From Bdellovibrio sp. (GTDB taxonomy: Bacteria > Bdellovibrionota > Bacteriovoracia > Bacteriovoracales > Bacteriovoracaceae): a stretch of DNA of 64,000 nucleotides. Made by a program: the position numbers and the translations under genes. Below the pieces are notes generated by a model. The model did no database searches and was not told where the DNA came from. It saw only the letters and a list, made by a program, of their open reading frames with translations. The stretch is from contig JACPIU010000026.1 in NCBI GenBank assembly GCA_016187935.1, forward strand, positions 1 through 64,000, given 5' to 3'. This document shows, one piece after another, positions 1,893-11,581 of this stretch (positions are counted from its first letter, which is position 1; every line of letters begins with the position of its first letter).

Positions 1893-2603
1893 TTGAATGC
1901 TTGTTCTTCGACTCAAGCCTATTTGAAAGATTTGACTGCTCAGATGTCACCTTTTCAGACAACTTTGGTTTCAACCCATAATCAAGAGCATGGTTTTGGC
2001 CGTAGAGGCACAACTTGGCTAAAGTGCCAAAATGCCCTTGCCTTCAGTCTATTATTTCCATTTCAGCTCGCACCCACCCTGGCTTCTTTGAAATTAGGTA
2101 ATGACGTTTGCCAATTTATACAATCTAAGTACGACTTCACCGTTAATATAAAATGGCCTAATGATATTTTCTTTAATGGTAAAAAAATTGGTGGGATTAT
2201 TGCAAACTTTATCCAAACTCAGGATGAGGGTGCGTGGATTTTGGCCGGCATCGGGCTCAATTTAGGGCGTCCTTCGCCAAGCGAGCTGGAAGAACTTTCT
2301 CAACTTCAAGCGGCTTATCTTACGGACTCCATCGTCTTGAATGATGAAGACGATCATCAAGTCGCCCTTGAGCTGGCGGAACTGATCACACAACAAAATG
2401 AGACCACAGAAGCATCGATTTTGACTGAATGGAAAAAGAATTGTTCCCACATTGGTCGTCAGGTCATCATTTTAGAAAATGATCAAGTTGTCTCTGAGGG
2501 AACATTCCTCAATGTTGGAAACCAAGGTCAGGCAATAATAAAAACGTTCGATAGAATCCAAGAAGTATGGTCTGGCACCCTGCGAATTAGGCCTATTTTT
2601 TAA
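1893..2603 (+). CDS. birA: Biotin--[acetyl-CoA-carboxylase] ligase, without DNA-binding domain
   Basis: The enzyme activates biotin with ATP and attaches it to the lysine of a carboxyl-carrier protein; the BCCP encoded at 30792-31307 is a likely client. Motifs are a variant of the biotinyl-AMP loop (FGRRGTTW), KWPNDIFFNGKKIGGI with the key lysine, and GIGLNLGRP. It lacks the N-terminal helix-turn-helix, so it is a monofunctional ligase, not a repressor. The start is uncertain: TTG at 1893 has no good Shine-Dalgarno and would begin inside the first beta strand (KLNACSSTQ). The frame is open back to 1845, and CTG at 1878 follows AAAGGCGG by 6 nt. Its stop overlaps the convergent response-regulator gene by 4 nt. 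Confidence 0.85.
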   Translation: MNACSSTQAYLKDLTAQMSPFQTTLVSTHNQEHGFGRRGTTWLKCQNALAFSLLFPFQLAPTLASLKLGNDVCQFIQSKYDFTVNIKWPNDIFFNGKKIGGIIANFIQTQDEGAWILAGIGLNLGRPSPSELEELSQLQAAYLTDSIVLNDEDDHQVALELAELITQQNETTEASILTEWKKNCSHIGRQVIILENDQVVSEGTFLNVGNQGQAIIKTFDRIQEVWSGTLRIRPIF

Positions 2604-4042
2604 GTCCGAGATTGTGCTTCAATTTTTTTAATTTCTTCACGGATTAAATTCTCGGCCAGATCAGGAATCACTTCCCAAGCAATACGTTCCACAGAATTTT
2701 TACAATAGTCTTTGAGCTTGGACTCTAATAACGGAGCTAGTTTAGCTAGAATTTTTTGAACGATGGCATCCTCATTGAGACTGGAGACCGTTTGCGTAGA
2801 TACGGGCGTGGGCCCGGTTGGAGTGTTCACTTGATTGGAACGAAATTCCCAATTTTCATCAAACTTAATCCCCACTTTTTCATTGGTAGAAACTTGCGTT
2901 TTGACTTGTTCCTTTCCAGGGATTGGTGTCGAATCTGCCGCCCAAAATTTATCCGGGTCCTCATCGGCTTGGAACTGTGCCAATAATTTTTCATTTAATC
3001 CTTGAGGCAATTCAAATGCTGGGTCTGTTATATCTGAATCTTCTTCCGCAATAGGGGATAGTTGATCGAGTGGAATAAGTTTACTTTTAGGTTTTTCCGT
3101 CTCAAAGGTAAAACTTGGATATTCTAAATCTGCCGCATCGGGCAGTTTAAAATCATCATCCTTGCTGGAATTAGAGATATCTTTCACTGTTTCCGGAGGG
3201 CGCGTAAGATTTACCACTTGTGCAGTCTCGGTCTGCTCAGGACCTGAACTTAAAAAATCTTCGATATGAAATACGTCAGTCGTATTTTGTGATTTATTTG
3301 CATCGACATCTTCAAATTCATCATCACCCGGATCAAGCGCTTGCAACATCGGCCTTCTTTCCGGCAATTTCGGTGGAACAAGAGATGTTTCTTCTACCTT
3401 TCCAATCACATCTGGAATTCCGATACCCCATCCTGAGAGATCCTCCTGTAATTTATTTTTTTGAGAGACATTCACATCCGCCGAAGCCAGATCATCATCG
3501 AGTTGAGAGAGATCAATTTCACGGACTCCCGATGTTTCATGGGATGCATTCATCACCCAGTTGGCATCATCATTCTCAGATAGCTGGTTGGTTGCTTCTT
3601 TTAAATCAATTTCTGTTTTAGCATCAAGATCTGCAATGCTGTTCAATTCAAATGGCGAAGAGCTTGTTGATTCACTCGATGATTGGGACAATAAATTCTG
3701 ACATTTTGAAATGAATTTTTCTGATTCGAACGGCTTCGTAATATAATCTTCAATCTTGGCATCACGAAGATTATTTTCATCAATGCTATCAAAAGTTCCC
3801 ACAAGTGTGAGAATAGGGCCGTTGTATCCACTTTTGCGAACTTCACGCGCTAAATCGTAACCTGATTTTTTATCGACAAGTCCAAAATCGAGTAAAATGA
3901 GGTCAAATTTATCTGTTTTTAATAGCGTGTTTAACTCGCTCTCGCTCTTGGCCGGCACCAATTGGTGGGGAAGAGACGAAAGTGTAATACTTACCACTTT
4001 TTGAATCGTCAAACTATCATCAGCAACTAAAATTCTGGCCAT
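2600..4042 (-). CDS. Response regulator with long acidic linker and conserved C-terminal helix
   Basis: 480 residues. The receiver domain covers about 1-120, with the acidic pair D8-D9, phosphoacceptor D52 (DLILLDFGL), T79 and K103 (TKPF). A long, acidic, low-complexity and presumably disordered stretch (about 125-410) follows. It ends in a compact helical module, RIAWEVIPDLAENLIREEI, a tail I know from deltaproteobacterial receiver proteins without a DNA-binding output. Output is therefore probably by protein interaction. I chose ATG 4042 because GGGA lies 7 nt upstream; TTG at 4048 is too close to it. It has its own promoter (4076-4104) behind the PP2C gene. The cognate histidine kinase is not in the window. 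Confidence 0.8.
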   Translation of the reverse strand: MARILVADDSLTIQKVVSITLSSLPHQLVPAKSESELNTLLKTDKFDLILLDFGLVDKKSGYDLAREVRKSGYNGPILTLVGTFDSIDENNLRDAKIEDYITKPFESEKFISKCQNLLSQSSSESTSSSPFELNSIADLDAKTEIDLKEATNQLSENDDANWVMNASHETSGVREIDLSQLDDDLASADVNVSQKNKLQEDLSGWGIGIPDVIGKVEETSLVPPKLPERRPMLQALDPGDDEFEDVDANKSQNTTDVFHIEDFLSSGPEQTETAQVVNLTRPPETVKDISNSSKDDDFKLPDAADLEYPSFTFETEKPKSKLIPLDQLSPIAEEDSDITDPAFELPQGLNEKLLAQFQADEDPDKFWAADSTPIPGKEQVKTQVSTNEKVGIKFDENWEFRSNQVNTPTGPTPVSTQTVSSLNEDAIVQKILAKLAPLLESKLKDYCKNSVERIAWEVIPDLAENLIREEIKKIEAQSRT

Positions 4043-4075
4043 GGCCAATTCCCTGAAAAAAACCTTTCACATATT

Positions 4076-4104
4076 ATTCTAAACTATTTTGGTAAATGTC
4101 TCAA
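4076..4104 (-). promoter_or_regulatory. Sigma-70-type promoter for the response regulator gene
   Basis: On the minus strand TTGAGA (4099-4104) is followed after exactly 17 nt by TAGAAT (4076-4081). Each box matches the consensus at 5 of 6 positions. It lies in the 90-nt gap after the PP2C gene and about 35 nt before the ATG at 4042, so the regulator can be expressed apart from the FHA cluster upstream. Confidence 0.6.
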
Positions 4105-4132
4105 AGAAAACGGGGTTAAATTGAAAAAAGTT

Positions 4133-4873
4133 TTAATAGTGAAGAAAAAGGGCCGTTTGATTATCAAGATTACCGCGCTGGCAAGAAATTTTAAAAAGAG
4201 CATTGATTTTATCGGCCGACGTCTGATCCGGGTCACTGATAATGTGTCGCAGTTCTCTATAAGCCAATCTTGAATATACTCCATCTGTCATCAAAACTAT
4301 TTGGTCGCCCTCTTGCACTTTCACCTCACGGCAATTTAGATGCAATTCTTCAAAAAGACCTATCCCGCTGAGAGGAGAAGTCGAATACTGGCCGGCAAAA
4401 CGATCATCCGACACAAATTGTAGGGAATCAGGCGCTAAAACAATATCCAATGTACCCTTTCTAGAAAGCAAAGCAAAAATATTACCTGCACTCACAAAAG
4501 TTAATAGGTTTTCACTTTGAGAAACACCTGCTACCGAAGCCCCACCCCGATTAGACATCTCTTTTGCCTTATTTTCTTTCAACATACTGTCATGTGCGTA
4601 GTGAAAAGCATTAATCAACGCATTTCCTTCTAATAGATATTTTATGCTGTAATAGAATGGCATCGTAGCATCGGGATCTTTTGAAGCACGCAGATAAAAA
4701 TTTTTAATCTGATCACGAATTTTTTGAATACACACATCTCCGATGCCCGCTCCACCAAAACCATCCATAACAATGGCGAGACGGTTGGCATAATCTACCA
4801 ACACTCCATCTTCGTTAACTTGGAGATAAGGACCTTGATGAGATTTTGCTGAATAACTTTTTAAACGAATCAT
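4133..4873 (-). CDS. PP2C-family (PPM) serine/threonine phosphatase
   Basis: 246 residues with the PPM motif series: NEDG at 20-23 (metal binding), IVMDGFGG at 34-41 (usual VxDGMGG), GGASVAG, LMTDGVYSRL, and a C-terminal DNQTALFL with the last metal-binding Asp. The usual GDSR is GNIF here, so the sequence is diverged, but the metal-binding aspartates are in place. Such enzymes remove phosphate from Ser/Thr. The gene begins 2 nt after the stop of an FHA-domain gene, and FHA domains read phosphothreonine. It is therefore probably the eraser for the phosphoproteins read by the three FHA proteins encoded just upstream. No partner Hanks-type kinase is in the window. Confidence 0.85.
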   Translation of the reverse strand: MIRLKSYSAKSHQGPYLQVNEDGVLVDYANRLAIVMDGFGGAGIGDVCIQKIRDQIKNFYLRASKDPDATMPFYYSIKYLLEGNALINAFHYAHDSMLKENKAKEMSNRGGASVAGVSQSENLLTFVSAGNIFALLSRKGTLDIVLAPDSLQFVSDDRFAGQYSTSPLSGIGLFEELHLNCREVKVQEGDQIVLMTDGVYSRLAYRELRHIISDPDQTSADKINALFKISCQRGNLDNQTALFLHY

Positions 4874-4875
4874 AA

Positions 4876-7131
4876 CTAATCCAAATAATCTTTCAATTTT
4901 TCTGTCGCCTTCTTATAATAATCACTATCACTGGGAGAAACCTGTTGCACTTCTTGTAATTTTTCTTTCGCATCATCAAATAAACTCAAACTCTCCGAAA
5001 TGATGGCTTCACGATATATTTTCTTTGACCGATTATTCAACATTTCACGAATCAAATTCATTTCATTCATAGCTTCTTCGTTGGCAGGATCATATTGTAA
5101 AATCTGATTATAATTCTCGTAGGCACCCTTTAAATCTTGTCCTTCTTTAAGTGAGCGCGCCTTACCAAGAAGAGGATCAACAAGCTGTTTCAGATTTTCC
5201 TTGGACTCTTCCAACATTTTGGTAGCATCCTGAACTAGATCTTCGTCCATATCTTTTAATTTGAGAAACTCCTCAAGTTTTAAAATGGCACGATACCAAT
5301 CCTTTTTCAAATAATATCCTTTGGATGGTGCTAAGGCGGTTACTTTTCGATTACGTTCTGCCTCTTTCTGGGCCTGTTCGACTTTTATTCGCTCTTGCTC
5401 TTTTTTCCAGGCATCCAATTCCATCTTTAATTGTGGAACATCGAAATTCTCAGGATCCATTTCTGCAATCTTCCCAAACAAGGCCTCTGCCACTGAAACA
5501 TTCCTTTCTTTTGTAGCTTCCTTGGCCTTCTCAACTAACTCTTTAACCTTTTTAACTCGCTCGGCCCTTTCAATTTCTGCTTGTTTCTTCCTTTCAAGTT
5601 CTTCAATTTTTCGCAGTCCTTCTGATGCCAGCTCAATAAGTTCCTTGGTACTCTGATAGTCAGGGTCTACTCTTTTCACTTTTTCTAATTCAATAATAGC
5701 ATCAGCATATCTGCCTGTATTAAACAGTTCCTGCCCTAAAGCATACGTGGCAGAAAGAAACTGTTCTTCTTCCGGTGATCTCTTTTTCTTAGGAATGCTT
5801 GCCGTTTTGCCACCCGACCCCATACCGCTACCGGTGGCGGCTTTCTTTGCTTTGTTTTTTGCGGCCTCATCTTGTTGACCACCATCATCGAGCATTAACA
5901 TGGCCGCCATTAGAACAACGACTCCAATGATCGCTTTTTTGCGCTTTTGAGGATCCTTTAATATTCTCTTGATAAATGATTTTTCGACTGGAGCATTATT
6001 TGCATTAAGTAAAGAATCTACAGATTGATCTACTACTTCTTCGACCACTTCTTCAATTTCAATGACTTGATTCTCTTCAACAGGCATGAGTCGTTTTTCT
6101 TCCTTATTCATGAAATCGGAAGAAATTTTTACCGTAAAGGTAGTCGATCCTATGATGAACTCATCATTGTTGCTTAAATCGACTTTGTTAATGCGTCCGC
6201 CGTTCAAGATGGTCCCATTGCCCGATTGCAAATCTTCTAATATCAGACCTATTTTTGTCTTTTTAATAACCGCATGAACGGAAGAAACTTCTGGATCATT
6301 CAAAATAATTTGACACTTATTTGCATCTCGCCCAATAAATGTTTCCTTGTCATCGACAACGTAGCGGTCGTAAGGTGCAAATTCGCCAAAAAGCTCCAAT
6401 TCAACTTTGGCAAAACTTTGCATCACTTTTGTTCCATCAACTTCCTCAACTTCTTGCACAGGAAATGATTCATCCGGAACGGTGTCGGTAGCTGATGGCA
6501 ATTCTTCTGTGGGGACACCACCTTGGGCACCCTCATCAAAGGCTTGGCCTAAATTAACATCTCCAATTCCTTCTGCTGCAGCAGCATCTCCTGCCTCTTT
6601 GCTAACCTCAAGATCATCTGCAGTAGCAGTAGCGGTTGCAGTAGCCGTTGCGGTGGATGTTTGAGTGGAATCAGGATTGGCCTCTGCATTTAATTCATCG
6701 GTGTTGTGATTTTCCTCTAATTTCGCTGCCGCCGTATTCTCTTTCGCTTTATCCTCTTCAAATTTATGCGCACGATCGAGAGCACTATTGCCACTGGTCT
6801 CATCACTTTTAGTGTATTCAGGGATTGTAAAAGAAAGAATGTATTGACCGATTGTGATCAGGTCACCGTTTTTTAATTTCGCCTCGCTAATATCACTACC
6901 GTTTAAACGAAGTTCGTTATATGGTGAATTTTTCTTTATATACCATTCAAAATTTTTGAAATTAAGTTGGGCGTGTTCGCGGGAAATTTGCATGTCATCT
7001 AAGAGAATATGACAATGCTGTGCCCTGCCAATAAAGAAAGTTACACCTTGATTGCTGGTTACTCCCTGTATTTCCTTGGAGAGGTCGAACTTTGCAAGCA
7101 GTTCGTTATTCTTCAAAACATTTATATTCAC
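4876..7131 (-). CDS. Membrane protein with two FHA domains and a TPR/coiled-coil region
   Basis: About 751 residues. FHA domain 1 spans about 5-105 (GRAQHCHILL, SREHAQLNF); an acidic linker with a Thr-Ala repeat near 160-172 follows. FHA domain 2 spans about 250-336 (FIGRDANKCQIIL, SSVHAVI, SGNGTILNG). One hydrophobic segment (about 400-415, VVVLMAAMLML) is followed by a long Lys/Glu-rich helical part with TPR-like units (ALGQELFNTGRYADAIIELE). FHA domains bind phosphothreonine; the likely topology is FHA inside, TPR part outside. It overlaps the previous gene by some 26-32 nt. I chose GTG 7131, 9 nt after GGGGA; TTG 7137 is the alternative. Confidence 0.85.
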   Translation of the reverse strand: MNINVLKNNELLAKFDLSKEIQGVTSNQGVTFFIGRAQHCHILLDDMQISREHAQLNFKNFEWYIKKNSPYNELRLNGSDISEAKLKNGDLITIGQYILSFTIPEYTKSDETSGNSALDRAHKFEEDKAKENTAAAKLEENHNTDELNAEANPDSTQTSTATATATATATADDLEVSKEAGDAAAAEGIGDVNLGQAFDEGAQGGVPTEELPSATDTVPDESFPVQEVEEVDGTKVMQSFAKVELELFGEFAPYDRYVVDDKETFIGRDANKCQIILNDPEVSSVHAVIKKTKIGLILEDLQSGNGTILNGGRINKVDLSNNDEFIIGSTTFTVKISSDFMNKEEKRLMPVEENQVIEIEEVVEEVVDQSVDSLLNANNAPVEKSFIKRILKDPQKRKKAIIGVVVLMAAMLMLDDGGQQDEAAKNKAKKAATGSGMGSGGKTASIPKKKRSPEEEQFLSATYALGQELFNTGRYADAIIELEKVKRVDPDYQSTKELIELASEGLRKIEELERKKQAEIERAERVKKVKELVEKAKEATKERNVSVAEALFGKIAEMDPENFDVPQLKMELDAWKKEQERIKVEQAQKEAERNRKVTALAPSKGYYLKKDWYRAILKLEEFLKLKDMDEDLVQDATKMLEESKENLKQLVDPLLGKARSLKEGQDLKGAYENYNQILQYDPANEEAMNEMNLIREMLNNRSKKIYREAIISESLSLFDDAKEKLQEVQQVSPSDSDYYKKATEKLKDYLD
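6617..6660 (-). repeat. Thr-Ala dipeptide repeat within the FHA gene
   Basis: About seven degenerate copies of a six-base unit (ACN GCN on the minus strand) encode a run of alternating Thr and Ala in the linker between the two FHA domains. The third bases vary, so it is a protein-level repeat rather than a pure microsatellite. A threonine-rich linker beside phosphothreonine readers could itself be a phosphorylation target (inference). Confidence 0.7.
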
Positions 7132-8092
7132 CTTCAATCATCCCCAATTCTTTTTCCACGTTTCGTAATTGACCCTCAGCACGTTTAAATCGCTCATCAT
7201 CTTTGTACGCTTCGAGAATCCTCATAATCGAACAATATGTTAGACCTGCACTCTGATATCGAAGCGAATCAAAATCTCTCCTGGCCTTCAAAAATAAATC
7301 CTCAATTGAATTATCTAAAGATTGTTTTGTTTTATTCAAATAAAATGCCGCACGACCATTATTTGGGTTCAAGACTAGAGCAAGATTAAACTCTTCAATG
7401 GCGCGAAAGAAATTTTTTTCCCGATATTCTCTCTGTCCTCGCTGGATAATTGCATCTAATTTTTTTTGCAAATCCTTATCTTCAACCTCTTTTTTCTTCA
7501 TCAACTGAGCAGTATAATTATCTGATATATCCTGCATCTTTTTGTCTGTGTCTTCTTTCTTTACTGCGGGTCCATTATCTCCACTATCAAGCATGATGAA
7601 GATCACAAAAATAGCTACCCCTCCAAGCATGAGAAGTTTACTGGGTTTCTTTTTGGGAGCTACGGCCTGCTCTTTTTCATTTTCACCTTTGGCCGGTTTC
7701 CCGAGAGGATTATTTTTAATTTCCTGAATCAAGTCTCTGACGTCAATAACGTCGAATTTGAATACAGTCTGACCAATAATAATTTTGTCACCATTCGTGA
7801 GGGTGTGTTGGGCCACTTTGAGATCATTAACAATAATTCCATTTTGCGATCCAAGATCTGTAACTATAAAAGTATCTTTAAACCGCGTCAGCTCTGCGTG
7901 CTCGCGAGAAGCTTTCACATCTGCCAATTGAACATCGGCATCTTCAGATCTTCCAAGAACGACACGATTTTCTTTCAAATAATATGACGTACCTTTATAA
8001 TCGCCAGTCATACACAAAAGGCGATAGTGCTTCCCCGGTGTTGGTGGCGGTTTAAATGATTTACTAATTGCAACTGCGGTACTCTGTTTCAT
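7106..8092 (-). CDS. Membrane FHA-domain protein with TPR region
   Basis: 328 residues. The FHA domain covers about 23-115 (LGRSEDADVQL, SREHAEL, DLGSQNGIIVND). One membrane segment lies near 153-168 (LMLGGVAIFVIFIMLDSG), and a TPR-like part follows (FFRAIEEFNLALVLNPNNGRA). Its layout and the MLD-acid-Gly motif after the membrane segment match the following 751-residue protein, so the two look like tandem duplicates. The ATG at 8092 is taken as start; the frame also contains TTG at 8104, which would overlap the previous stop. It probably assembles with the neighbouring FHA proteins at the inner membrane. Confidence 0.85.
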   Translation of the reverse strand: MKQSTAVAISKSFKPPPTPGKHYRLLCMTGDYKGTSYYLKENRVVLGRSEDADVQLADVKASREHAELTRFKDTFIVTDLGSQNGIIVNDLKVAQHTLTNGDKIIIGQTVFKFDVIDVRDLIQEIKNNPLGKPAKGENEKEQAVAPKKKPSKLLMLGGVAIFVIFIMLDSGDNGPAVKKEDTDKKMQDISDNYTAQLMKKKEVEDKDLQKKLDAIIQRGQREYREKNFFRAIEEFNLALVLNPNNGRAAFYLNKTKQSLDNSIEDLFLKARRDFDSLRYQSAGLTYCSIMRILEAYKDDERFKRAEGQLRNVEKELGMIEGEYKCFEE

Positions 8093-8100
8093 TTTTAATC

Positions 8101-9669
8101 TCAATGATTTTTCACAAACGTAATATAATACGCTTTTGCAAAATGATCCTTTCCCATCAAAGCATTGACAAATAACTTATAATCATGGCCGGTCAAACTA
8201 TACGTACCATCTTGGCCAACTCCCCCATTGTTAGCGCATTTATCACAGAGTTCTATGACCGTGGCGGCGAAACCTTGCTCTCGTGCTACATCAAGAAGAC
8301 TCATCCCTTCAGCCGCACTTTGTCTGATTCCCGTGAGGTCCTCACCCTCTGTGTTTATTGCTCTCAGGTTTTTATCGTTGTCTAAAACCATGGCGGGACC
8401 GGCAGAGCCACGAAGAAATTCTTTCAAAGAATTTACGTATGGACCTGAATCTTCCGACTCTTGCATCTCTTGCTCCCCGCCGGTACTGGTTAAATCGCGA
8501 ATTCTCTGGAGGATTGTGTTGAGTGCACTCTTGAGAGGCTGCAATTCTGAAAATAAAAGTTTTGTTTCAATCCCACGACGTTTCCCTCGCAGGGTTTCTT
8601 CCACATGAATTCTAATTTCCTCAAGCGGTTTGATTGTCAAGTAGTAGACAATTCCAAAGAAAATTATTGCGATAATACCTGATGTGGTTAGTGCTTCTAA
8701 GAAAGCGGAAGAATTTTTTGTTGCCTCAACGGCCAATGACTTTGGAGTAAAATGGATGGCAATAACACCGACAGCTTCTGTTTGTCCTGTTTTAGCGTTG
8801 TAGGCCATGATTTTTTGAGCGATTCCTATCTCACCATCGCCAAGAACCAATCTTAATGCGCCGGTATTTTTGTTTGCTGAAGCTGCGGCCCATTCTTTGG
8901 CCTTAATTGAGAGCGAGTCCGAAGTGTATTCATTTAACTTTCCCATCGGACGTACAATGCGACCTTCTAGATCAAATAATTCATAGGAGGCAACGTCCGC
9001 TTCAGTTTCCAAAAACCCTGAATCAACTCTGTCTAAATTTTTTTGCTCAAGCCATCGCGCGTTCAATCTGGCAATTTCTTCGGCGAAATGTTCACCACGT
9101 TTTGCTGTCTCTTTCAGGAGTATCTCACTACTCTGTTGCAAAACGGGAAAAATAGTAAGAGCGATCGTGGCAAAAACAAAGATGGCCAACAATATCCCTA
9201 ACATTACTCGCCATTCGTACTCCTCATTAATGCCATGAAGAAGTGGCATAAGTTTGTATTTGAACATCCAAATAAATTTCTCATGGATTCTAGATGGCGC
9301 AGGAGGAATCAAATTCAAATCTTCTGTTTCCGCCCCTTCTTCGATTTTTGCAATCGTTTTTTTGATAATAACTTTCTTTTCTTGAACAAATACAATTTGA
9401 AAAATTATATCGGGAAGTGCGAGCTTATCCCCTCCTTTCACTGTGGCCTGTTTGGTAATTTTGCCGTTTAAGAATGTACCATTTGAGGATCCGAGGTCTT
9501 TTAAATATGCGGTATCCCCTGTAACCGTCAGACTAAAATGTTTTTTTGAGACACCATCAACACTCACTTGATGATCACATGCGGCATCTCGACCGAATAT
9601 ATTTTCACCTTCTTTAAGAATAAATTCTTTGCCGCGAATTTTTCCTGCAACGGCGACTAGCTTATACAT
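8101..9669 (-). CDS. FHA - membrane sensor - HAMP-like - PAS-like protein
   Basis: 522 residues. The FHA domain covers 1-95 (GRDAACDHQVSVDGVSKKH, GSSNGTFLNG at 60-69). Membrane segment 1 is at 156-178, a periplasmic part of about 150 residues follows, and segment 2 is at 330-347. A HAMP-like stretch (IKPLEEIR) and a C-terminal PAS-like domain from about 415 complete it. That is the frame of a transmembrane sensor with an FHA head and no kinase, cyclase or methyl-accepting part. It might couple an outside or redox cue to phosphothreonine binding. It overlaps the DUF192 gene by 13 nt, so the genes are coupled. Confidence 0.8.
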   Translation of the reverse strand: MYKLVAVAGKIRGKEFILKEGENIFGRDAACDHQVSVDGVSKKHFSLTVTGDTAYLKDLGSSNGTFLNGKITKQATVKGGDKLALPDIIFQIVFVQEKKVIIKKTIAKIEEGAETEDLNLIPPAPSRIHEKFIWMFKYKLMPLLHGINEEYEWRVMLGILLAIFVFATIALTIFPVLQQSSEILLKETAKRGEHFAEEIARLNARWLEQKNLDRVDSGFLETEADVASYELFDLEGRIVRPMGKLNEYTSDSLSIKAKEWAAASANKNTGALRLVLGDGEIGIAQKIMAYNAKTGQTEAVGVIAIHFTPKSLAVEATKNSSAFLEALTTSGIIAIIFFGIVYYLTIKPLEEIRIHVEETLRGKRRGIETKLLFSELQPLKSALNTILQRIRDLTSTGGEQEMQESEDSGPYVNSLKEFLRGSAGPAMVLDNDKNLRAINTEGEDLTGIRQSAAEGMSLLDVAREQGFAATVIELCDKCANNGGVGQDGTYSLTGHDYKLFVNALMGKDHFAKAYYITFVKNH

Positions 9670-10016
9670 GAAAACTCCAAAGTATCTCCGATTTTCAAAT
9701 CACTTGGTATAAGGCCGGACTTTAACTCGAGTACTTTTTTGGCACGCCAAACGATCCAAGTCATTCGCCAAGGTTTTACATTTCGTTGTATTTTCAGAAT
9801 GACATTTTTTCGAGAGAGAAAAACCAGATCCAAGTTAAACCGCATAAAAAATGTATGTATGGAATTACATGGCTCAATAAGCAATCCATCAATTTCAACT
9901 GTTGGAGGCGCAAACATAAGTCCTATCATGCGATCTAATGTTGCATTCGCATGTCTCGTTTTTGAGGAAAGTAGAACTGAGTTTTCCTGCCATGTAACTT
10001 TAAGCATATCTATCAT
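9657..10016 (-). CDS. DUF192 family protein
   Basis: 119 residues with the DUF192 pattern: RMIGLMFAPP, a conserved small hydrophobic core, the CNSIHTFFMRFNLDLVFLS segment (family xxMxxxxFPLDxxF) and a later conserved hydrophobic strand. The function of the family is not established. Most members carry a signal peptide; this one has no clear one. Its ATG overlaps the stop of the TadC gene (TAATG) and its end overlaps the next FHA gene. DUF192 proteins beside Tad/Flp pilus genes are a pattern I have met, but I cannot prove a link. Confidence 0.85.
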   Translation of the reverse strand: MIDMLKVTWQENSVLLSSKTRHANATLDRMIGLMFAPPTVEIDGLLIEPCNSIHTFFMRFNLDLVFLSRKNVILKIQRNVKPWRMTWIVWRAKKVLELKSGLIPSDLKIGDTLEFSCIS

Positions 10017-11581
10017 TATTGAGGTCCTGAAATAAATTCAACGACAAGCGGACCAGCAACGATCAATAATACCGCTGGCGTTATTAGAAATAGCATTGGA
10101 AAAAGAATTTTCGTTGCTGCTGTCGCACCTCTCTTTTCAATGTCACTCGATTTTTTCTGTCGTATTTCAACGGCGAGACTTTTCAAGATAGGCCCGATGG
10201 ATGCACCAACTGAATCCGCGGCGATGAGAGTTGCGCAAAAGGAAGATATCTGAATCAAGTCAATTCTCCATGACATGTTCCGCAAAGCTTCTGCACGGCT
10301 GGCACCAATTTTAATTTCTTTAATGAGAATCTGGAATTCTTCTGTAAGCGCGGACGGCTTCGCCTTTTCTACGACCTTCGTCATGGCGGCGATAAAATCC
10401 AAACCGGCTTCAACAGAGAGCGCCAGCATATCAACACAAAACGGCATTGAATTGATAACATCAACCTGCCGCTGTTGCTTCTTACCATTGATCCATATGT
10501 TGGGATAGAAAAAGCCGATACTCCCCAATAGCGGCATAAGGCTCAAAGGCCATGTTTCCTCAAGGAACGCTCTAACACCCATAAAGACAACAGGAAATCC
10601 TATAATCAAAAAAAGTTTGAAACTGTAAAAATCTTCAGCCGACATCAAGTTGGTCAATCCGGCGGCAGCTAAAGGACGCTTATATTTTTCCTTTAATACC
10701 CTCTTGTATTTCATCGAAGAGACAACGGGGGAGATATAACGTTTGAAAAAGGGTCGAGAATATTGCAATACAATCCCGTGTTTTGCTATGTCTGCTTTGC
10801 TAACAGTATCTTCTAATTGCTCTCCGGCCTTAAATTGGCTCTCATCTTGAAATACCATTTTTGCAAATAAAAAAACTGAAAGTCCGATCAAAATCACCGC
10901 GGCATACATTAAGAGATCACTACCAGTTTTTTTATTTTTTAATCTTTCACATGCAGTCGCCTCTCCTCCATCGCAACCCCGACGATAATATATTTGTGCT
11001 TTTTCATATTCTTCTTTTTTTATCAACACATCTCCCATCCGTAAGCATCCCAAAATTCTTTCTGCTGAACATGACGGTATACCTTTAAGGCCATATTTTT
11101 TTGCCATTTCAGGCGTTGCACAGCCATAGCGACGCAGGTTTTCAATGGCTTTTTCTTTATCTTTGGCATAAGCAGCTTCGGAAAAATACAATCCACACGC
11201 TTTTGTTAAAACGTTTTCTGCCTCATCTAATTTCTCCATCGCCATTAACTGCTCTCCAAGTGTTGTACAACTCTCTGGAATAGCAGGACGCGTTGGTTTT
11301 ACTCTTAACCAATCACCATCAGCACACAGATTATCCCAAACCAATTTTTCATTAGGAGACATTTTATCCATTTTATCTTTATAGGTTTCATCCAGTTCCT
11401 TGCATCTCTTGATCGTTTTTTGTGTTTTATCTTGTTCCGCCTTTTCTTCAGCGTAGCATTCAAAGGCATACCGCTTGATCAATGCTTGTGGTGAATTATC
11501 ATCATCCTGGGCCAATGAGAGATTTTTAAAAACACTGATAAGCAGAAAAATAGAAATAACAACCTGACATTTTGTTTTCAT
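10016..11581 (-). CDS. TadC-like type II/IV secretion (T2SSF) protein with N-terminal periplasmic Sel1/TPR part
   Basis: 521 residues. A signal peptide covers 1-24 (LSLA before QDD). A cysteine-rich periplasmic part (25-220) ends in a Sel1-like repeat (ALGKAQ-type, here YEKAQIYYRRGCDGG). A membrane segment lies at 223-244, and the T2SSF domain covers about 290-521, with VDMLALSVEAGLDFIAA, then a series of membrane helices to the C-terminus. That domain is the inner-membrane platform of Tad/Flp pili and type II systems. The signal peptide plus Sel1-like extension is unusual for TadC. No other tad gene (tadA, tadB, cpaB-E) is in the window. It heads the FHA/PP2C cluster. Confidence 0.85.
   Translation of the reverse strand: MKTKCQVVISIFLLISVFKNLSLAQDDDNSPQALIKRYAFECYAEEKAEQDKTQKTIKRCKELDETYKDKMDKMSPNEKLVWDNLCADGDWLRVKPTRPAIPESCTTLGEQLMAMEKLDEAENVLTKACGLYFSEAAYAKDKEKAIENLRRYGCATPEMAKKYGLKGIPSCSAERILGCLRMGDVLIKKEEYEKAQIYYRRGCDGGEATACERLKNKKTGSDLLMYAAVILIGLSVFLFAKMVFQDESQFKAGEQLEDTVSKADIAKHGIVLQYSRPFFKRYISPVVSSMKYKRVLKEKYKRPLAAAGLTNLMSAEDFYSFKLFLIIGFPVVFMGVRAFLEETWPLSLMPLLGSIGFFYPNIWINGKKQQRQVDVINSMPFCVDMLALSVEAGLDFIAAMTKVVEKAKPSALTEEFQILIKEIKIGASRAEALRNMSWRIDLIQISSFCATLIAADSVGASIGPILKSLAVEIRQKKSSDIEKRGATAATKILFPMLFLITPAVLLIVAGPLVVEFISGPQ

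Follow-up and report, generated by a model that had tools for sequence, protein, structure and literature searches.

Why should the gene for a TadC-like platform protein head a cluster that encodes three membrane-bound FHA proteins and a PP2C-type phosphatase, with neither a Ser/Thr kinase nor another tad gene among them? The cluster occupies positions 11581-2600 (minus strand) of the window, by which we mean the whole stretch of 64,000 nucleotides (nt) analysed here (Bdellovibrio sp., GenBank assembly GCA_016187935.1, contig JACPIU010000026.1). The original prediction, made from these letters, saw in it a phosphothreonine-gated membrane complex acting on a secretion or pilus platform, and could not put a name to the gene set. 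A counterpart does exist, as the first six genes are orthologues of Bd0470-Bd0475, the predation operon of Bdellovibrio bacteriovorus HD100. We give a probability of about 0.75 to the reading that this block is one half of an ancestral tad/FHA locus, that its TadC serves a prey-attack pilus together with partners encoded 400 kb away on the same contig, and that the FHA module regulates this machine through phosphorylation.

The six-gene block and its probable tad partners

Genes were called from open reading frames and a Pfam domain search of the window proteins. All seven predicted genes were found, and the first six are indeed tightly chained, overlapping or lying 2 nt apart, with a gap of 84 nt before the seventh. 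In order, they encode TadC, a DUF192 protein, an FHA protein with a sensor domain (FHA-sensor), two further FHA proteins (FHA1 and FHA2), the phosphatase (PP2C) and a receiver-domain protein. The DUF192 protein (9657-10016, minus strand; 119 amino acids (aa); PF02643, 1.1e-15) is the regular second gene and keeps its place in relatives.

Conservation was assessed in 241 Bdellovibrionota genomes for profile counts and, for gene order, in the 55-60 genomes whose locus was fetched. A scan of the collection found the same block in named Bdellovibrionota metagenome-assembled genomes (MAGs). Nearly every fetched locus keeps the order TadC, DUF192, FHA-sensor, FHA1, FHA2, PP2C, and those that depart from it lie on cut contigs or, in a few cases, have a divergent FHA2 or lack a recognised PP2C. 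A four-sequence profile of the FHA-sensor matched in 145 of the 241 genomes, including all 72 of the window's own family, and of 67 genomes that it had missed, 60 gave a nearly full-length match with a 45-sequence profile. The flanking genes, MreB, PilZ, NagZ, birA and rph in that order, are found only in the window's family. The six-gene cluster is real and ancient, and an order kept in almost all loci fetched is not due to chance.

In the genome which we take to be that of HD100 (G073), the operon lies at 439,774-446,707 and encodes TadC, DUF192, a 565-aa FHA-sensor, a 387-aa FHA1, a 684-aa FHA2 and a 228-aa PP2C-like protein, the same six genes in the same order. The published sizes agree (386 aa for Bd0473, 674 aa for Bd0474, 228 aa for Bd0475), and these genes form one operon with Bd0470-Bd0472 (PMC12034629). 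The window block is thus the orthologue of Bd0470-Bd0475, though further literature searches turned up no paper naming such a set. Transposon insertion in either Bd0470 (TadC) or Bd0474 (FHA-FHA-TPR) abolishes prey killing, and complementation succeeded for both; attachment to prey is retained in the mutants of Bd0474 and lost in those of Bd0470 (PMC6561027). Attachment without killing fits a role for Bd0474 at a step after contact. In a two-hybrid assay Bd0474 binds the periplasmic TPR protein Bd0075, which is also essential for predation (PMC12034629). The predation phenotype of the operon in Bdellovibrio was known before; its wide conservation and its link to pilus genes now open the proposed switching mechanism to direct tests.

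That link comes from the tad genes. TadC (10016-11581, minus strand; 521 aa; orthologue of Bd0470) matches Pfam T2SSF at 2e-15 and has the TadC-type topology, with hydrophobic transmembrane stretches at residues 5-23, 222-240, 323-341 and 496-514. The statement that no other tad gene is present holds within the cluster, but the genome as a whole encodes several T2SSF and T2SSE proteins. A tad locus without tadC lies 400 kb away on the same contig as the window (C19, at 403.7-411.1k); it encodes CpaA, TadE-like pilins, CpaB, CpaC, a MinD-CpaF fusion ATPase with a MinD/CbiA-like N-terminus, and TadB. A protein with DUF6531 and RHS/YD repeats follows TadB (L031:12241-13866); it is the counterpart of Bd0109 and the conserved last tad gene across families. 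Cognate partners for the operon TadC are thus present at a locus that has no TadC of its own.

When the operon loci of other families were searched with the C19 proteins, the two sets of genes proved to be continuous in at least 14 genomes from eight families (f4, f8, f9, f12, f13, f15, f19 and f25), where PP2C is followed by pilin/TadE, CpaB, CpaC, CpaEF, TadB and RHS genes. Each of the 16 genomes tested has the CpaEF-type ATPase, even where the sensor is divergent or missing. HD100 has RHS, TadB, CpaEF, CpaC and CpaB genes and no tadC at 97.2-104.5 kb, in agreement with the published hit/TAD locus bd0109-0119 (PMC5430801, PMC3818213). Because the locus is continuous in eight families and the C19 locus lacks tadC, we take the operon TadC to be the second platform protein of the Tad/Kil-like pilus encoded there, and assign the FHA module to the same pilus. 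The natural reading is that there was once a single tad/FHA locus, which came apart in the window's family; in the Bdellovibrio lineage the split was a separate event or an earlier one.

The window TadC carries a lineage-specific N-terminal extension of about 220 aa (11581-10922) with a signal-peptide-like stretch and TPR-like repeats, present in some genera of the family and absent from others (about 295 to 527 aa overall); relatives that lack it have a TadC of 295-301 aa. Possibly the extension is a fused lipoprotein domain of the TadD type. In one marine Bacteriovoracaceae MAG (L029:491-1378) TadC is kept (69 % identical), with unrelated genes downstream in place of the FHA module. At the other end of the block, the operon in Bdellovibrio-like families is followed by a conserved gene set (HD100 L149:12720-15643, L115-L119 and L152-L154) for a protein of 500-650 aa, read from the other strand, an ExbB/TolQ-like protein (MotA_ExbB) and a protein of 134-154 aa that is probably ExbD/TolR-like.

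Predicted FHA readers, a candidate kinase and the phosphatase

The three FHA proteins are all minus-strand products. The FHA-sensor (8101-9669; 522 aa; FHA 7.3e-14, PAS 0.004) was modelled with AlphaFold (mean pLDDT 86.6, pTM 0.47), which gave a cytoplasmic FHA domain, a transmembrane stretch, a periplasmic alpha/beta sensor domain, a second transmembrane stretch, a HAMP-like coil and a PAS domain, without a kinase domain; the hydrophobic stretches are at residues 155-173 and 323-341. As modelled, it is a histidine-kinase-like sensor minus the kinase. The best whole-length structural match was WalK-YycH, with a modest TM-score of 0.32, and the FHA part matched GarA, OdhI and the FHA domain of Bdellovibrio DgcB. 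FHA1 (7106-8104; 332 aa; FHA 6.5e-17, TPR_2) has a cytoplasmic FHA domain, a single transmembrane stretch (157-175) and a TPR region. FHA2 (4876-7137; 753 aa; FHA 1.7e-31 in two stretches, TPR; orthologue of Bd0474) has two cytoplasmic FHA domains, a single transmembrane stretch (402-420) and a periplasmic TPR region.

Residues of the predicted phosphothreonine site were checked across the phylum in three FHA domains (45 FHA-sensors and 37 FHA2 proteins), FHA1 being aligned for four sequences only. The Arg, Ser and Asn-Gly are kept in 43-45 of the 45 FHA-sensors, and in the C-terminal FHA domain of all 37 FHA2 proteins. The N-terminal domain of FHA2 retains Gly-Arg and Ser, with a non-canonical Asn-Gly loop. 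Judged from these alignments, the key phosphothreonine-binding residues are essentially invariant in the three domains, as would be expected of phosphothreonine readers.

The original prediction remarked on the lack of a Ser/Thr kinase. This is so for the cluster, in which the Pfam search found none, but the genome encodes four Pkinase proteins, and 238 of the 241 genomes have at least one match. One of the four (C25:100719-102773) was matched in 34 of the 35 genomes that have a single kinase, with coordinates that coincide in those cases where both were given. In HD100, only one Hanks kinase exceeded the cut-off, at 3,060,256, with 43 % identity to the C25 protein over the kinase domain; the only other Pkinase match there is an ABC1 (UbiB-type) protein. 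As the sole such kinase and from its approximate map position, this is probably Bd3148. Bd3148 is reported to be expressed in attack phase and to compromise predation when interrupted (PMC6733907). A gene for a GYF_2-PilZ protein (L035:4329-5123) lies shortly upstream of the conserved kinase gene on C25.

The kinases encoded on contigs C9 and C48 were rejected as candidate writers. They are not universal and an FHA protein gene adjoins each, so that they look like parts of separate circuits. The two loci (L034:4751-8811 on C9 and L033:5185-9165 on C48) are paralogous, each pairing a gene for an FHA protein with one for a Ser/Thr kinase of 907-913 aa. On C9 the FHA partner is a complete FHA-sigma54 activator (FHA, AAA, Fis HTH).

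The sequence match of the phosphatase (4133-4873, minus strand; 246 aa; SpoIIE and PP2C_2, 4e-6 and 3e-5; orthologue of Bd0475) is weak, at 27 bits, and the protein was therefore modelled with 40 homologues. The AlphaFold model (mean pLDDT 94.5) has PP2C phosphatases as its best solved matches, the top one being PppA of the Pseudomonas aeruginosa type VI secretion system (T6SS; 6jkv, E 1e-17), and a profile search of PDB sequences agrees (tPphA, 1e-26). The metal-site motifs NED, DG, TDG and DN are all intact in the window protein, so that it has both the fold and the metal-binding Asp residues predicted for an active enzyme. Almost every member of the window's family likewise has intact metal residues.

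Weighing the alternatives

Four observations weigh against the preferred reading. Three genomes that carry the operon (G105, G010 and G018) have no Pkinase match, though they are incomplete. The metal residues of PP2C are eroded outside the window's family, completely so in families f11, f22, f23 and f26 and in HD100. The TadC tree has long branches and gives no firm split of the operon TadC from that of a second tad locus in the genome, on contig C27. Finally, the window's family has no linkage between the two tad halves, so that their partnership there rests on orthology.

The first two observations also speak for the main rival, namely that the FHA proteins are structural scaffolds of the pilus base, making constitutive or phosphate-independent contacts, with no regulated phospho-switch. 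The FHA-like domain of YscD makes structural contacts of this kind in the inner ring of the type III secretion system (T3SS). The Pfam model for that domain (Yop-YscD_cpl) matches all three FHA proteins, and FHA2 shares its FHA-transmembrane architecture with the gliding protein GltG. However, a scaffold has no need of phosphothreonine-site residues, and these are kept almost without exception in the FHA-sensors and in the C-terminal FHA domain of FHA2, while PP2C is intact in most of the window's family. We therefore regard a purely structural role as unlikely, albeit worth serious attention.

In HD100 the PP2C-like protein (L149:12022-12708) has lost its metal-binding residues, as have those at L079-L082. 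Bd0475 gives no Pfam match and its DG motif is gone; by the comparative evidence, this 'hypothetical' protein is a decayed PP2C. The degenerate protein of HD100 and several other families would be a pseudophosphatase kept in place. Set against the retained FHA residues, this pattern indicates that reading is conserved, while active erasing by PP2C is not universal.

A different possibility is that TadC serves the complete tad locus on C27 (L032, G000:C27:106-118k), or no tad system at all, and that the FHA module regulates something else. The 400 kb between the operon and the C19 genes speak for it, as does the completeness of the C27 locus. The original prediction had named two things that together would count against it, a complete tad locus elsewhere with its own tadC and the lack of conserved linkage in relatives. 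The first was found: the C27 locus differs from that on C19 and is complete. The second was not, as linkage is conserved. C27 has its own TadB and TadC, TadC is the one component that the C19 locus lacks, and in the eight families with a continuous locus it is the C19 type, with its CpaEF fusion and terminal RHS gene, that adjoins the operon. An assignment to C27 is thus very improbable. The C27 CpaF has an extra N-terminal region that, by eye, is degenerate-FHA-like (no Pfam match) and recalls KilF of the Myxococcus Kil system.

We find it just as hard to credit a mainly transcriptional or cell-cycle role for the module, in which receiver and FHA-sensor would control attack-phase genes and TadC would be a passenger. 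In favour of such a role, the receiver gene adjoins the block within the window's family, and bd0470 expression is lowered in host-independent strains. Against it, the Pfam search assigned none of the seven proteins a DNA-binding domain, the block of other families has no receiver and the FHA proteins are membrane-anchored. Being conserved there only in the window's family, the receiver gene (2600-4048, minus strand; Response_reg, 1e-12) was rejected as a core part and is treated as a family-specific neighbour. The linker of its product is long and of low complexity, and the C-terminal helix (VERIAWEVIPDLAENLIREEIKK; motif IPDLAENLI..EI) is invariant. The product has no output domain, no histidine kinase gene adjoins its gene, and it is possibly a localisation factor. 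The promoter predicted for this gene has a consensus match (TTGAGA-17-TAGAAT at 4104-4076), though promoter-like sites overall are no commoner than in shuffled sequence (28 against 23.6, sd 5.4). Sigma-28 (FliA) promoters were also considered for tadC, the receiver gene and the C19 tad locus, but no upstream match was better than in shuffles.

Proposed mechanism and known systems

On the preferred reading, the operon TadC would pair with the C19 TadB, the CpaE-CpaF ATPase, the CpaB/CpaC channel and the pilins to form a type IVb (Tad, Kil-like) prey-attack pilus. The three FHA proteins, anchored in the inner membrane, would read phosphothreonine on its cytoplasmic side; two would reach into the periplasm with TPR arms and one with a sensor domain. 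Most probably, a Ser/Thr kinase acting in trans would mark proteins of the pilus or platform; the FHA proteins would bind these marks and connect them through the membrane with TPR assemblies of the periplasm, Bd0075 being an example. Once bound, they would bring the Tad machine to the contact site or license it there, after attachment, and PP2C would reset it. What stands of the complex first proposed is the tie of a reader module to a platform, with phylum-wide linkage and continuity with a tad locus in many families. The gating step we infer, like the pairing of kinase with substrate and the role of PP2C.

A bolder version, which we put forward tentatively and at somewhat less than an even chance, is that this is a phylum-wide, vertically inherited switch integral to the predatory Tad pilus. 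In it the C25 kinase (probably Bd3148) would place the marks on prey contact, the three FHA proteins would license TadC/CpaEF and PP2C would erase the marks, with a non-catalytic role as a pseudophosphatase in several lineages. Behind this stands the question of how, in Bdellovibrio and Myxococcus, contact with prey leads to the Tad/Kil pilus being assembled or fired. The authors of the Kil work suggested an FHA cascade and named no kinase. The continuity of FHA/PP2C and tad genes, the near-invariant binding sites and a single HD100 Hanks kinase linked to attack phase and predation make that suggestion directly testable.

Among known systems, Bd0470-Bd0475 (PMC6561027, PMC12034629) agrees in its six genes, their order and the sizes noted above. 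The window differs in its intact PP2C motifs, where Bd0475 is degenerate, in the TadC extension and in the receiver gene after PP2C. The C19 locus, taken with its RHS gene (403.7-412.9k), corresponds to the hit/Tad locus Bd0109-Bd0119 (PMC5430801, PMC3818213) in TadB, CpaE-CpaF, CpaC, CpaB, pilins, RHS and the missing tadC, but has a prepilin peptidase, which is reported as missing in Bdellovibrio (PMC5430801). DgcB (Bd0742), an FHA-GGDEF protein, likewise has a phosphothreonine-reading FHA domain that licenses prey invasion, and Bd3148 was discussed in that work as a candidate kinase (PMC6733907). However, DgcB makes cyclic-di-GMP, whereas the window FHA proteins sit in the membrane and carry TPR or sensor parts.

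The threonine phosphorylation pathway of T6SSs (PpkA-PppA-Fha1) shares an FHA reader and a PP2C eraser acting on a contact-triggered envelope machine, and PppA is the protein nearest to the PP2C model. The machine differs, and neither a PpkA kinase nor T6SS genes are present in the window cluster or were recognised in the loci of relatives. The module may work like this pathway, but that is a likeness only.

The comparison with the Kil system of Myxococcus xanthus (PMC8460266, PMC12075869) is based on published descriptions. Both have tad genes spread over two clusters, several associated FHA proteins, which in Kil are of unknown function, and a role in contact-dependent killing of prey, which for the present operon was shown in B. 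bacteriovorus only. However, the ATPase KilF carries an N-terminal FHA domain, whereas the C19 ATPase is a MinD-like/CpaF fusion without one, and for this reason we do not file the system as Kil proper. Bdellovibrionales are nonetheless counted among the carriers of Kil-like systems by the authors who described Kil (PMC8460266).

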